Source of the DNA: Lentilactobacillus parabuchneri DSM 5707 = NBRC 107865
Lineage (GTDB): Bacteria > Bacillota > Bacilli > Lactobacillales > Lactobacillaceae
Direction: 5' to 3'
NCBI RefSeq assembly: GCF_001435315.1
Contig: NZ_AZGK01000001.1
Coordinates: forward strand, 63,476-127,475
DNA length: 64,000 nt
How positions within the stretch are numbered: position 1 is the stretch's first letter; each line of letters begins with the position of its first letter. The notes under the pieces were generated by a model. That model searched no databases. It had not been told where the DNA came from and was given only the letters and a program-made list of their open reading frames with translations. Positions 52,150 to 63,234 of this stretch are shown one piece after another. Both the position numbers and the translations under genes were made by a program.

Positions 52150-52384
52150 TTAAATTAAAGTGTTGAGCAAGAGAGTAGCCAACGATCCGGTTTCAGAAAG
52201 AAAATCATTGCTGGGAGATTTTTACCGATTGTTGTGTGAAAGTAACTTGTGAGCTGCCCGCTCGAATTTTGAGAGCGGGACGGGATTATCAGCCCGTTAC
52301 AATGATAGTTAAGTGGGGCTTTACAGCCCAATTTAGGTGGTACCGCGAGCACTTCGTCCTAATGTTTGGATGGAGTGTTTTTTT
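52150..52384 (+). promoter_or_regulatory. T-box leader of valS
   Basis: Stem I with AGAGAGTAG (loop E AGTA), specifier GTA at 52242-52244 (GAA-A-GTA-A, then the helix CTTGT pairing with GCAAG), the T-box AGGTGGTACCGCG and a terminator in which CACTTCGTCC pairs with GGATGGAGTG before TTTTTTT (52349-52384). The variable base T fits A73 of tRNA-Val. Uncharged tRNA-Val should turn on valS. Confidence 0.9.
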
Positions 52385-52429: not shown

Positions 52430-55090
52430 ATGTCAGACAAGAAGCAAGAAATGTCAACGAAATATGATCCAACTTCCGTGGAAAAGGGAAGATATAATGA
52501 ATGGCTTGAAGAAGGGGTATTTGAACCAAGTGGGGATAAGAAAGCAAAACCATTTTCAATCGTTTTACCGCCACCAAATGTTACTGGAAAGCTCCACTTG
52601 GGCCACGCCTGGGATACCACACTGCAAGATATGATTATTCGCCGCAAGCGGATGCAGGGTTATGATACCCTTTGGCTGCCAGGAATGGACCATGCGGGGA
52701 TTGCAACGCAAGCAAAAGTTGAGGCCAAGCTTCGCAAACAAGGCATCTCTCGTTATGACCTGGGCCGTGAAAAGTTTATCGATAAGGTATGGGAATGGAA
52801 AGACGATTTTGCCCGGACCATCAAGGAACAGTGGGCCAAATTAGGGCTTTCACTGGACTATGAACGCGAACGCTTTACCCTTGACGAAGGCTTGTCAAAG
52901 GCCGTTCGCAAGGTCTTCGTTTCCCTTTATAACAAGGGCCTGATTTATCGGGGCGAATATATTATTAACTGGGACCCACAGGCTCGGACTGCTTTGTCTG
53001 ATATTGAGGTTATTCATAAGGATGACAAGGGTGCCTTTTACCACGTTAAGTATCCATTTACGGATGGCACGACATTTAACGGCAAGGATTACATTGAAAT
53101 CGCAACCACCCGTCCTGAAACCATGATGGGTGATACTGCGGTTGCGGTTAACCCTTCTGATGAACGTTATAAAGAACTGGTCGGCAAAAAGGTTTTGGTG
53201 CCGTTAATTAACCGTGAAGTGCCAATCATTGCCGATCAATACGTTGACCCTGAGTTTGGAACTGGAATGGTTAAAATTACGCCTGCCCATGACCCTAATG
53301 ACTTTAAGGTCGGTAATCGTCATAATCTAAAGCGGATTAATACGATGAACGAAGACGCGTCAATGAACGAAAATGCCGGAAAGTATAAAGGCATGGATCG
53401 TTTTGAAGCCCGAAAAGCAATGGTTAAGGATCTTGAAGACGAAGGCCTGATGCTTTCAATTGATCCAATCGTCCATTCAGTTGGTCATTCAGAACGAACC
53501 GGGGTTCAAGTCGAAGCCCGTTTATCAACTCAGTGGTTTGTTAAAATGAAGCCACTGGCAGAACAAGCCATTCAAAATCAATCAACTGACGATAAGGTCA
53601 GCTTCTTTCCTGAACGATTTGAAGGCACTTTCACCCAGTGGATGGAAAACGTGCATGATTGGGTTATTTCTCGTCAGCTTTGGTGGGGACATCAGATTCC
53701 AGCCTGGTACAACAAGCAGACTGGTGAAACATACGTTGGCATGGAAGCGCCAAAGGACGCAGAAAACTGGGAACAGGATCCGGATGTTTTGGATACCTGG
53801 TTCTCATCTGCACTCTGGCCGTTTTCAACCATGGGTTGGCCAGACGATACTGACGACATGAAGCGTTATTTCCCAACCGACACGTTGGTAACCGGATATG
53901 ATATCATTTTCTTCTGGGTTTCCCGGATGATTTTCCAAAGCCTTGAATTTACCCACGAACGACCATTTAAGGACGTTTTACTTCACGGCCTGATTCGAGA
54001 TTCACAGGGCCGTAAGATGTCCAAGTCACTTGGAAATGGGATTGATCCAATGGATGTCATCGATAAGTATGGGGCGGATGCATTGCGTTGGTTCCTGTCA
54101 ATTGGTGGTACCCCTGGTCAGGATTTGAAATTCAGTTACGACAAGATGGATTCCGCCTGGAACTTCATTAACAAGATTTGGAATGCCAGCCGGTACGTTA
54201 TCATGAACCTGGATGGTATCGACAAACCGGAGCTTCCGGACAAATCGGAATGGCAACTATCTGATAAATGGATTTTAAGCCGTTTGAACGCAACGGTTAA
54301 CCATGTTTCTGAGTTGTTTGAGAAATACAACTTCGGTGAAGCTGATCGTTATCTTTACGATTTCATTTGGAACGATTTCTGTGATTGGTACATTGAAATG
54401 AGTAAAGAAGCACTTAACAGCGACGATGAAAAGCTCAAGAAAAACACCCAGAATATCTTGGCTTATGTTCTTGACCAGACATTACGGTTGTTGCAGCCAA
54501 TCATGCCGTTTGTGACGGAGTATATCTGGCAAATGATGCCACACGTTGGCAAATCATTGGTAACCGCTGAGTATCCGGTTGACCATCCTGAATTTAATGA
54601 CGGCACTGCTGAGCATCAGATGCAGTCACTGATTGATCTGATCACGGCCGTTCGTAATATTCGAAACGAGGCCAACGCACCGTTATCATCACCAATTGAC
54701 ATGTTGATTCAAACGGATAACAGTACCTTAAAAGAAATCTTTGAATCAAACCGTGACTACATTGATCGCTTCTGCCACACCAAGGAACTTCAGATTGGTA
54801 GTGACATCCAAGCACCGAAGCTGTCGATGTCAGCCGTGATTACTGATGCAACGGTCTTTGTACCGTTAGCTGAGCTGGTTGATCTCAAAGATGAGCAAGC
54901 ACGGGTTCAAAAAGATGTTGATAAATTCGAATCCGAGGTTGCCCGTTCTGAAAGGAAGTTGGCCAATAAGCGCTTTGTCGAAAACGCACCGGATGCGGTT
55001 GTTGACGAAGAAAAGAAGAAGCAAGCCGATTATCAGTCCAAGTTGGATGCGGCTAAGGAACGTTTGCAACAAATTAGTAGTGAGATGTAA
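52430..55090 (+). CDS. valS: Valyl-tRNA synthetase
   Basis: 886 residues, class I. The HIGH-like motif is LHLGHAWD and KMSKS is [13 protein letters not shown]1 editing domain (~190-370) clears Thr-tRNA, an anticodon-binding domain lies at ~610-760 and a C-terminal coiled coil (from ~815, rich in Lys/Glu) is present. Full length. Its expression is set by the T-box leader. Confidence 0.98.
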
Positions 55091-60625: not shown

Positions 60626-60654
60626 TTGACGGATTCTCCGATTACGATTATGAT
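60626..60654 (+). promoter_or_regulatory. Promoter of the T-box/amino-acid transporter operon
   Basis: TTGACG, 17-base spacer, TATGAT; the transcript would start near 60661, just before the T-box leader. Confidence 0.8.
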
Positions 60655-60660
60655 GAATTT

Positions 60661-60935
60661 AACTTAATTAAAGATATTTTAAAGACGGTGATCAGAACCG
60701 GTCTTCAATTTGAATTTCAGAGAGCTCATCACGGTGGAAGTTGGGTATTCAGTTGTTGGTCGTCACATCTGGGAGTCATTTTTCTGAACAGAGTAGGAAA
60801 AAGCGGTGAGCACGTTATTGCTGAAGTTTAGTATTAAACTCGTAGAGGCCTTTCACATGAGTGAAGGGCAAATCTGAGGTGGAACCGCGATAAAATCGTC
60901 CTCTTAAGTCATTGATGGCTTAAGAGGATTTTTTT
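60661..60935 (+). promoter_or_regulatory. T-box leader, first (complete) module
   Basis: An early hairpin (AAGAC.../GTCTT) is followed by Stem I: base TTTCAG/CTGAA, then GCTCATC/GGTGAGC with the specifier loop before it (GGAAAAAGC). Stem III is GCCTTTCAC/GTGAAGGGC (60848-60869), the T-box GAGGTGGAACCGCG is at 60876-60889, and the terminator TCCTCTTAAG/CTTAAGAGGA plus T7 is at 60899-60935. The T-box variable base is A, predicting a tRNA with U73. The best-placed specifier is AAA or AAG (Lys), which conflicts with U73, so the amino acid is unresolved. Confidence 0.85.
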
Positions 60936-60947
60936 GTTTACCGGATT

Positions 60948-61049
60948 GACTAAACTTCATGAGGCAGCAGGTGTGAACTTGTTGCAAATTGAGGTGGAAC
61001 CGCGAAAGCCATCGTCCTCTTGAGTCTTGATACTCAGGGGGATTTTTTT
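60948..61049 (+). promoter_or_regulatory. Second, Stem I-less T-box antiterminator/terminator module
   Basis: Right after the first terminator comes a second Stem III (GCAGCAGGT/ACTTGTTGC, 60964-60985), a second T-box GAGGTGGAACCGCG (60991-61004) identical to the first, and a second terminator (TCCTCTTGAGT/ACTCAGGGGGA plus T7, 61015-61049). There is no room for Stem I or a specifier. The order AAAT-(C)-TGAGGTGGAACC is kept in both, so this looks like a duplicated 3' half. Confidence 0.85.
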
Positions 61050-61064
61050 ATGGAGGGATGTCAA

Positions 61065-61709
61065 ATGATTCAATATATTCAAGAAATTTTACCAGCTTTA
61101 TTATCTGGAACCAAAATGACGTTATCAATTTTCTTTTGGACGTTAATTTGCTCAATTCCGTTGGGCGCCTTGGTTGGTTTGGGACTGATTCAGCGCTTCA
61201 AACCATTAACCTGGCTTTTGAACTTTTACGTCTGGATCATGCGGGGAACGCCACTGTTACTGCAATTAATTTTTGTGTTTTACGGATTACCAATTATTCA
61301 CATTGTCTTTCAACGATATGACGCTGCGATGTTTGCCTTTATTTTGAACTATACCGCCTACTTCGGTGAAATTTTCCGTGGTGGTTTCCAGTCAGTTCCA
61401 AAGGGCCAGTTTGAGAGCGCCAAAGTGTTGCGTTTAAGTTATGGCCAAACTATTCGAAAGATTGTCATTCCACAGGTTTTCAAAATTGTGTTGCCTTCAA
61501 TTGGAAACGAAGTCATCAACTTGGTCAAGGACTCTTCATTGGTCTATGTCATTGGCTTGGGCGACTTACTGCGAGCCGGAAACGTTGCGACTGCCCGGGA
61601 TGTCACTTTGCTGCCGCTCATCTTAGTCGGGATTATTTACCTCGCCTTGACCGCGGTTTGCACGATTGTCTTGAAACTCATTGAAAAACGTGAAAATGTT
61701 TGGCGATAG
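61065..61709 (+). CDS. Polar amino-acid ABC transporter permease
   Basis: 214 residues from ATG at 61065, eight bases after GGAGG. Five membrane spans of the HisM/GlnP family, with the coupling loop FESAKVLRLSYGQTIRKIVIPQ. RGTPLLLQLIFVFYGLP and NEVINLVKDSSLVYVIGL are family hallmarks. The T-box leader upstream implies an amino-acid substrate whose shortage is read by its tRNA. Confidence 0.94.
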   Translation: MIQYIQEILPALLSGTKMTLSIFFWTLICSIPLGALVGLGLIQRFKPLTWLLNFYVWIMRGTPLLLQLIFVFYGLPIIHIVFQRYDAAMFAFILNYTAYFGEIFRGGFQSVPKGQFESAKVLRLSYGQTIRKIVIPQVFKIVLPSIGNEVINLVKDSSLVYVIGLGDLLRAGNVATARDVTLLPLILVGIIYLALTAVCTIVLKLIEKRENVWR

Positions 61710-61721
61710 GAGGGAATTCAT

Positions 61722-62357
61722 ATGTTAGAGATTAAAGATTTAACAAAACGCTTTGGCAGTCGAACAATTATTGATGACCTTTCGATGACCGTCAAAGATA
61801 ACGAAATCATGGCGATTGTCGGTCCGTCCGGTGCCGGTAAAACAACCTTATTGCGCTGTATTACGGGATTAGAGTCCGTCGACTCCGGAGAATTTTATTG
61901 GAATGGGAGTCAATTTGATCCGGCCAATACCACTCAAAAGGATACAATCATCGGCGTTGTCTTTCAGGATTACCAACTATTTCCTAACTTAACGGTCCTT
62001 GGCAATATTACATTGGCGCCGACGATGGTTAAAAAAGAACCAATGGATGACGTTAAAAAGTATGCCCGTGAGCTTTTAAGCCGGTTGGGACTTGAAGGAA
62101 AAGAAAATCTTTATCCCTATCAGCTGTCAGGAGGGCAAAAGCAACGGGTAGCCATTGTTCGTGCGTTAGCCATGCGGCCCAAGATTCTCTGCTATGATGA
62201 ACCGACTTCAGCTTTGGATCCTGCGTTAAGAGACGAAGTTGCCCAAATTATTTTGGATCTCAAAAAACAGGAAATGACCCAAATCGTCGTCACTCATGAT
62301 ATGGATTTTGCCAAGAACGTTGCCGACGAGATTCAACAGGTTAAACAAATTCAGTAG
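61722..62357 (+). CDS. Amino-acid ABC transporter ATP-binding protein
   Basis: 211 residues, slightly shorter than the ~240 usual for GlnQ-type ATPases, with a short C-terminus ending FAKNVADEIQQVKQIQ. Walker A VGPSGAGKTT, Q-loop VFQDYQLF, signature LSGGQKQRVAIVRAL, Walker B ILCYDEPTSALD and switch His VTHDMDF are all intact. The usual tail after FVADRIIFMDxG is missing, but the catalytic core is complete. Confidence 0.94.
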   Translation: MLEIKDLTKRFGSRTIIDDLSMTVKDNEIMAIVGPSGAGKTTLLRCITGLESVDSGEFYWNGSQFDPANTTQKDTIIGVVFQDYQLFPNLTVLGNITLAPTMVKKEPMDDVKKYARELLSRLGLEGKENLYPYQLSGGQKQRVAIVRALAMRPKILCYDEPTSALDPALRDEVAQIILDLKKQEMTQIVVTHDMDFAKNVADEIQQVKQIQ

Positions 62358-62367
62358 GAGGGGTAGG

Positions 62368-63234
62368 ATGTTAAAATCAATGAAACGACTTTTATTACTT
62401 ACCAGCTTTCTGCTGATTGCGATTGGCCTTTCAGGCTGCGGTGTTCGGTACGTTAACCGGCAGGGATCTCAAGAAGATCCAGACACCTGGGCAACGGTTT
62501 CCAAGCAAAAGAAAATTGTTGTCGGCTTGGATGATAGTTTTGTCCCCATGGGATTCCAAACCAAGAGTGGCAAAATTGTCGGCTATGACGTTGATCTTGC
62601 CAAGGCCGTGTTCAAACAGTATGGGATCAAGGTCGATTTTCAGCCAATTGATTGGTCAATGAACGTGACTGAATTACGTAACGGGACCATTGATCTTATC
62701 TGGAACGGATTTTCGATTAATCCGCAACGGGCAAAGAAGATTACCTTTAGTGAGCCTTACTTGATTAATGATCAGGTCTTAGTTACCAAGAAAAATCAAC
62801 ACATTAAGAATTTTGCCGACATGAAAGGCAAAGTGGCCGGAGTTCAAAGCGGATCGGCCGGGGCGATGGACATCGATAACCAACCCAAATTATTGAAGGA
62901 TCGGATTAAGGGCCATGAGCCAATTTTATATGACACGTTTACAGACGCGTTTATCGACTTGAATGCCAACCGGATTCAGGGATTGCTGATCGATAGCATT
63001 TATGCAGGCTATTATCTGGAACATCAGAAAAACGAATCCAGCTTTACGTCTATCCCAAGTGAATTTCCAAAGGAACAGTATGGCGTTGGGATGAGAAAGG
63101 GCGATACGGTTTTGAAGCAAAAAATTGATGCCGGCTTGAACCGATTAGCCAAAAATGGGGAATTGCACAAGATTAACATGAAGTGGTTTGGAACCGATCG
63201 TGATAGTCCACTGATGAAGAACGTTCAGAAATAA
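62368..63234 (+). CDS. Amino-acid-binding lipoprotein of the ABC transporter
   Basis: 288 residues from ATG at 62368 (GGAGGGG upstream). Signal peptide with lipobox LSGC. Family 3 solute-binding motifs: VVGLDDSFVPMGFQTKSGKIVGYDVDLAKAV-type N-lobe, TIDLIWNGFSINPQRAKKITFSEPY and GVQSGSAGAMDI. The FSxPY and GYDVDL blocks are those of polar amino-acid binders. Substrate not assignable from sequence. Confidence 0.94.
   Translation: MLKSMKRLLLLTSFLLIAIGLSGCGVRYVNRQGSQEDPDTWATVSKQKKIVVGLDDSFVPMGFQTKSGKIVGYDVDLAKAVFKQYGIKVDFQPIDWSMNVTELRNGTIDLIWNGFSINPQRAKKITFSEPYLINDQVLVTKKNQHIKNFADMKGKVAGVQSGSAGAMDIDNQPKLLKDRIKGHEPILYDTFTDAFIDLNANRIQGLLIDSIYAGYYLEHQKNESSFTSIPSEFPKEQYGVGMRKGDTVLKQKIDAGLNRLAKNGELHKINMKWFGTDRDSPLMKNVQK

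Follow-up and report, generated by a model that had tools for sequence, protein, structure and literature searches.

A histidine T-box leader of Lentilactobacillus parabuchneri with a single tRNA reader, two consecutive termination modules and a predicted strand exchange that may link them

How can a single codon-reading domain serve two consecutive termination decisions? This question is raised by a leader in the window analysed here, a stretch of 64,000 nucleotides from Lentilactobacillus parabuchneri (all positions are those of the window). The leader has minD on one side and, on the other, an operon for an amino-acid ABC transporter (permease, ATPase and solute-binding protein). It consists of one complete T-box, after which Stem III, the T-box, the antiterminator and the terminator occur once more but Stem I does not (Table 1).

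Architecture of the leader

The Rfam T-box model RF00230 aligned with module 1 over its full length (60679-60906, model positions 1-219 of 219, 92.7 bits, E 4e-21). Its match to module 2 was partial (60951-61019, model positions 151-216, 15.2 bits, E 0.39) and spanned only the linker, Stem III and T-box. Since module 2 scores only 15.2 bits, surveys based on RF00230 would probably count this leader as single and miss the second module. The score of module 1 is itself 0.3 bits under the gathering score of 93, so the whole leader is missing from the default Rfam list.

We looked for a Stem I-like structure between the modules. Terminator 1 and Stem III-2 are separated by a spacer of 28 bases (60936-60963), which is too short to hold another Stem I or specifier. 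A fully tandem T-box would carry both, and the leader is thus a partially tandem one, in which everything from Stem III to the terminator (Stem III, T-box, antiterminator, terminator) is present twice and Stem I once. An earlier sequence-only reading of this DNA had proposed two decision modules sharing one Stem I, and the Rfam matches, the spacer and the sequence agree with it. It had also reported an identical T-box of 14 bases. Both T-boxes contain AGGTGGAACCGCG, and the identical stretch around them, read from the sequence, extends this repeat to 16 bases (TGAGGTGGAACCGCGA, 60875-60890 and 60990-61005).

For module 1, the antiterminator and the terminator fold can both be drawn, and a switch in response to uncharged tRNA is predicted. 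The Stem I helix CAGA/UCUG shows changes on both sides in the genus alignment, in which minus-strand loci were turned. A search of the genome for the exact pattern of two T-box motifs, spaced by 100-130 bases, matched this leader alone. The T-box model gave 48 matches with E<=10 in the genome, including one with E 6.67. An ordinary single T-box lies elsewhere in the window (52154-52364, + strand, 123.9 bits), just 5' of an 886-aa ORF at 52430 which, by eye, we take to encode valyl-tRNA synthetase.

Table 1. Features of the leader and the downstream operon, in window positions
Feature	Position	Strand	Basis
Promoter-like pair: -35 TTGACG (60626-60631), -10 TATGAT (60649-60654), 17-base spacer	60626-60654	+	By eye, sigma-70-like
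Stem I: base GAC/GUC, kink-turn-like GGUGA/GGA, helix CAGA/UCUG, AG bulge, apical loop GGUGGAA	60684-60777	+	Rfam and genus alignments; boundaries by eye
Specifier CAC (His), then a purine	60764-60766	+	Pattern and eye in relatives
Stem II, S-turn-like loop (UGAACAGAGUA)	60779-60802	+	Rfam alignment; boundaries by eye
Stem IIA/B region, 3' end CGUUA	60803-60817	+	Rfam alignment and sequence
Anchor strand GAAGUUUAG, common to H1 and H2	60823-60831	+	Comparison and folding
Strand 1 UAAACUC, H1 partner of the anchor, just 5' of Stem III-1	60835-60841	+	Comparison and folding
Stem III-1	60848-60869	+	Sequence, Rfam alignment
T-box 1 AGGUGGAACCGCG, antiterminator 1 bulge UGGA	60877-60889	+	Sequence
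Terminator 1 hairpin and U run; seven Ts at 60929-60935	60899-60935	+	Sequence
Strand 2 CUAAACUUC, H2 partner of the anchor, just 5' of Stem III-2	60950-60958	+	Comparison and folding
Stem III-2	60964-60985	+	Sequence; 77/77 relatives
T-box 2, identical to T-box 1	60992-61004	+	Sequence
Terminator 2 hairpin and U run; seven Ts at 61043-61049	61014-61049	+	Sequence; 77/77 relatives
ABC transporter permease, hisY-type by operon order; ribosome-binding site GGAGGG at 61052	61065-61709	+	
ABC transporter ATPase, hisZ-type by operon order	61722-62357	+	
Solute-binding protein family 3, hisX-type by operon order	62368-63234	+	Start picked by eye within ORF 62296-63234

Conservation of the second module and histidine specificity

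The leader was found in all 24 Lentilactobacillus genomes searched, L. parabuchneri included. Loss of the second module was looked for among these close relatives, and every genome keeps both T-box motifs, 104-128 bases apart after turning of the minus-strand loci. Chance does not account for such an arrangement. One genus member (L042) has AGGTGGAATCGCG as T-box 2. We then scanned named genomes with the permease alignment and kept the best 80 loci. Two T-box motifs, 100-131 bases apart, were present in 77 of them and a single motif in three. These 77 two-module leaders from the best 80 loci, hereafter the 77 relatives, span nine genera, all Lactobacillaceae, and the L. parabuchneri leader itself is outside this set. 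T-box 2 reads AGGTGGNACAGCG in seven of them. By loose criteria, a Stem III of at least 6 pairs, the 3' side of the antiterminator and a terminator hairpin (dG below -8) with a T run were found for each module in 77/77. Because the parts of both modules are kept to this extent, the second module is, by sequence comparison, not decaying. BLAST matches in 206 of 350 family genomes were excluded from these counts, as complete leaders and isolated T-box motifs are lumped together in them.

The three hisYZX leaders with one module belong to Secundilactobacillus oryzae (L120), S. malefermentans (L134) and Liquorilactobacillus ghanensis (L159). All three retain, by eye, a hairpin resembling H1 (described below).

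The invariant triplet of the specifier loop is CAC, followed by a purine (76 of the 77 relatives from the best 80 by pattern, the 77th by eye), and a tRNA family search of the genome returned a tRNA-His(GTG) gene as its complementary partner. Outside Lentilactobacillus, GAA and one extra variable base mostly precede the codon (GAA-N-CAC), and the Lentilactobacillus leaders lack this GAA. The bulge opposite the tRNA acceptor end reads UGGN in module 1. UGG matches the CCA of the tRNA, and N was A in 62, T in 13, G in one and C in one of the 77. In the tRNAHis gene we read G-1 as paired with C73, which makes the fourth pair of the bulge non-complementary. C73, being paired with G-1, would be unavailable to the bulge, and the UGGA mismatch is understandable because of this tRNA sequence. 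These His T-boxes seem to do without the discriminator pair, N being rarely G. The bulge of module 2 is UGGC in 16 of the 77. A specificity for Cys, Thr or Gly, suggested by the UGGA bulge and tRNAs with U73, was considered and dropped, as CAC is kept in the specifier loop.

NCBIfam names no substrate for the operon; among the families listed only HEQRo_perm_3TM, a permease domain, passes the cut-off. The order permease, ATPase, binding protein is that of the hisYZ*X operons which, in the accessible text of PMC9413887, are reported with His T-boxes in Lactobacillales, and the leader shares both this order and the amino acid with them.

The distribution was extended with the exact two-motif pattern (spacing 100-130 bases), which undercounts because it allows no mismatch. 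Among 295 Lactobacillales genomes 41 contained it, L. parabuchneri included. Of these, 21 belong to a second Lactobacillales family, and here all 21 leaders have the CAC specifier and a downstream permease 57-63% identical to the L. parabuchneri one. In a sample of the phylum 30 of 398 genomes matched, again counting L. parabuchneri, and a reversed control pattern matched some genomes too. Two phylum loci without a T run (L198 and L213) are probably chance hits. The partial tandems of the phylum sample (L197-L225) precede genes for DAHP synthase, a sodium/solute symporter and PaaK-like proteins, as judged from five proteins searched, and some, by our reading, precede TrpE/TrpD.

The anchor strand and its two helices

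The anchor GAAGUUUAG is a short strand that follows Stem IIA/B and precedes Stem III-1. Together with strand 1, just before Stem III-1, it forms the hairpin H1 (5-10 pairs, mean -5.6 kcal/mol in the 77 relatives from the best 80). Strand 2 (CUAAACUUC), just before Stem III-2, is also complementary to the anchor and, in the relatives, to the H1 loop as well; the helix it would form is called H2. By comparison and computation, H1 and H2 are thus two mutually exclusive helices with one common strand, as strand exchange is defined.

The register of H2 was set by sequence markers, not by pairing: the first RGUU after CGUUA on one side and YRAG before Stem III-2 on the other. The 77 leaders reduce to 58 distinct ones, in which 13 columns were scored. 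Standard pairs made up 90.5%, compared with 31-47% when the register was slid by 1-3 columns. When strands were permuted freely among the 58 leaders, the mean was 65.9% and the maximum 71.6%. Permutation within genera, which leaves relatedness inside a genus in place, gave a mean of 84.0% and a maximum of 87.4%. None of 2000 permutations of either kind reached 90.5%. Genus labels for the within-genus shuffles were mostly those of the record titles; the MAG records L106, L126, L140, L148, L151, L152 and L154, whose titles give no usable genus, were assigned from their leader sequence. Each of columns 7-12 contained 4-6 types of standard pair, and column 13 contained four.

Columns 11-13 of H2 belong partly to strand 1, and the pairing was therefore also scored where H1 leaves the columns unpaired. 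This is so in 26 of the 58 leaders for column 8, 46 for column 9, 56 for column 10, 49 for column 11, 30 for column 12 and 15 for column 13. In the 279 H1-unpaired cells H2 keeps 87.5% standard pairs, against 51.2% for free permutation (maximum 60.6%) and 72.4% within genera (maximum 78.9%), with 0/2000 reaching the observed value in both cases. Since these cells still pair, H1 does not explain the pairing of H2.

Pairing is kept through sequence turnover. The anchor and strand 2 read GAAGUUAUUGUAA/UUACAAUAACUUC, GAAGUUAAUGUAA/UUACAUUAACUUC and GAAGUUCUUGUAA/UUGCAAGAACUUC in Companilactobacillus and GGAGUUUAGUGAU/AUCACUAAACUCC in Lactiplantibacillus. Levilactobacillus (GGAGUUGCUUGCA/UGCAAGCAACUCG), Limosilactobacillus (GGAGUUUAAUUUU/AAAAUUGAACUUA) and Lactobacillus (AAGGUUGAUUAUU/AAUAAUCAACCUA) examples have 12 of the 13 columns paired. 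The poorest of the 58, a Limosilactobacillus leader (L164), pairs badly in the register set by the markers. Within Lentilactobacillus 10-13 columns are paired in all 24 leaders, and the L. parabuchneri H2, with 10 of 13, is among the shortest in the genus.

Duplex energies gave a similar picture in narrow windows, where cognate strands of the 77 relatives from the best 80 reached -17.5 and non-cognate strands -9.6 kcal/mol. The cognate duplex was better than its own non-cognate mean in 77/77 relatives, 21/21 leaders of the second family and 19/24 of the phylum set, four of whose 28 loci were left out for lack of markers. At most one of 100 shuffles was as good as the cognate duplex in 63 of the 77, and 8 of the 21 second-family leaders stand out singly from composition shuffles. 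The test had been weaker in wide windows (cognate better in 59/77, 17/21 and 14/28, respectively), where Stem II and terminator sequence confounded it, and the windows were then narrowed. H2 was predicted in 11-13 of 26 phylum cases, most clearly in L199, L217, L218 and L221-L223 (L214 left out). The clostridial examples are weaker.

The distance from the conserved marker 5' of Stem III to the T-box was measured in 76 relatives from the best 80. It is 33-34 bases in module 1 of all 76, and 33-36 bases in module 2 of 65; the other 11 have 44-47 bases there, which reflects either a wrong marker or a real difference.

To follow the order of folding, growing transcripts were folded from the Stem IIA/B end by partition function, that is, at equilibrium and as RNA alone. 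Once strand 1 is out, H1 has a mean probability of 0.95 (above 0.5 in 77/77 relatives from the best 80), and at the end of terminator 1 still 0.84 (70/77). When strand 2 is out, H2 rises to 0.98 (above 0.5 in 77/77) and H1 falls to 0.01. With strand 2 taken from another genus H2 exceeded 0.5 in only 13 of 58 leaders, and with shuffled letters in 2 of 58. Later, H2 stays above 0.5 in 72/77 after antiterminator 2 and in 68/77 at the end of terminator 2. A wide-region folding control put the leader's own H2 above 0.5 in 69/77 relatives, 18/21 second-family leaders and 11/26 phylum cases. Equilibrium folding thus favours H1 first and H2 afterwards in all 77 relatives modelled. In the L. parabuchneri leader H1 ranges from 0.02 to 0.85 during the synthesis of module 1 and is already at 0.04-0.08 at transcript ends 60940-60950, before strand 2 is complete. 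Its H2 reaches 0.99-1.00 at ends 60960-60990, and varies between 0.08 and 0.93 at ends 61000-61060, as the second T-box emerges.

A putative relay and its relation to known T-boxes

We propose, with a probability of about 0.72, that this is a His T-box leader in which one tRNA reader serves two serial termination decisions linked by the exchange of H1 for H2. The conserved architecture, the mutual exclusion of H1 and H2 and their order of formation are supported by comparison and folding. While module 1 is made, the anchor, 3' of Stem IIA/B, and the strand before Stem III-1 would form H1. The tRNAHis bound to Stem I would probe T-box 1, and uncharged tRNA would let the polymerase pass terminator 1. 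The emerging strand before Stem III-2 would then pair both with the anchor and with the H1 loop, its toehold, and strand 2 would displace strand 1 to give the longer helix H2. Module 1 would be looped out, and Stem III-2 with T-box 2 would take the same place beside the complex of Stem I/II and tRNA, where T-box 2 would be tested by the same reader. If transcription needs two passes, leakage would be multiplied down and the response sharpened.

We infer the tRNA relay, its proofreading effect and its physiological role. The sequence-only reading had listed, among other options, that the tRNA held by Stem I is handed on; this option is favoured because module 2 is connected with the Stem I/II domain by the covarying H2. 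The weak folding of the L. parabuchneri leader and the 11 odd spacings lower the odds of the proposal slightly, and the test on H1-unpaired cells raises them by about as much.

H2 could instead be an insulator that locks module 1 away and prevents cross-pairing between the T-boxes, with module 2 working with little help from Stem I. The 16 identical bases in the two L. parabuchneri T-boxes fit this, and so does the H1/H2 balance of this leader, whose instability as T-box 2 emerges may make cross-pairing a real hazard. However, an insulator has no need for a strand adjoining Stem IIA/B, nor for keeping the T-box spacing of module 1 in most of the second modules, and we consider it unlikely. Less likely still is that module 2 alone senses the acceptor ends of uncharged tRNA, without a codon reader. 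In module 2 the antiterminator bulge is complete and Stem III-2 is present, yet such sensing would not be His-specific without a specifier and does not predict that H2 is kept through strong sequence turnover. We find it slightly more improbable again that terminator 2 is a plain leak barrier, unresponsive to tRNA. Terminator 2 is indeed strong in the 77 relatives from the best 80 (mean -21.9 kcal/mol), but Stem III-2, the T-box sequence and the 3' side of the antiterminator would then be superfluous, and all are kept by the loose criteria above. A decayed partial duplicate, which the sequence-only reading had offered as an alternative and for which the T-box 2 variants could be taken as erosion, is very improbable, given a second module that is present with its parts across the genus and in nine genera, and an H2 that covaries.

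T-boxes with duplicated terminator-antiterminator elements were reportedly named and first described by Vitreschak et al. in 2008. The sequence-only reading had taken the known tandem T-boxes to be repeats of whole units, which was incorrect in part: partially tandem T-boxes, likewise with one Stem I and then two antiterminator/terminator units, appear in the available part of a 2020 review, which lists their mode of action as unknown (PMC7583486). In fully tandem T-boxes of thrS, trp and ilv leaders, two serial terminators both need uncharged tRNA, as the accessible text of PMC12452182 has it. There each unit has its own sensor, whereas here one reader would serve both. The accessible part of PMC9413887, a survey made with RF00230 and Riboswitch Scanner, lists one T-box for most regions and, in five Enterococcus species, tandems upstream of the transporter operon. 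A review of tandem riboswitches covers single-aptamer, dual-aptamer and repeated-unit designs, and no class that combines a single sensor with two expression platforms was seen in its available text (PMC9481103). As far as their accessible parts go, PMC12452182 and PMC9481103 treat complete units.

Strand-exchange riboswitches form group 3 in PMC10907184, where, in the portion available, strand exchange is defined with a toehold. Like H1 and H2, they have two exclusive helices, a common strand and a toehold. Unlike in these riboswitches, the exchange of H1 for H2 is predicted to follow transcription and not the state of the ligand, and to move the reader and not to decide between on and off. 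In the T-box literature searched, as far as it was accessible, we found no description of an exchangeable anchor helix, and the accessible text of PMC2494555 and PMC7778990 contains no such element; the work of Vitreschak et al. 2008, which lay outside the search, may show part of it. The partially tandem T-box itself is already known. The new part, which had escaped the sequence-only reading, is the linker with its anchor strand and an exchangeable and covarying helix that joins module 2 to the single reader.

The anchor strand offers a concrete mechanism for how one sensor serves two decision points. At even odds, it may also exemplify a general RNA relay, in which toehold strand exchange brings a reader with its bound tRNA to each termination decision in turn, giving kinetic proofreading of tRNA charging. 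Such a relay would operate in His leaders of two or more Lactobacillales families, and leaders of the clostridial type at DAHP synthase and sodium/solute symporter genes may use it independently.
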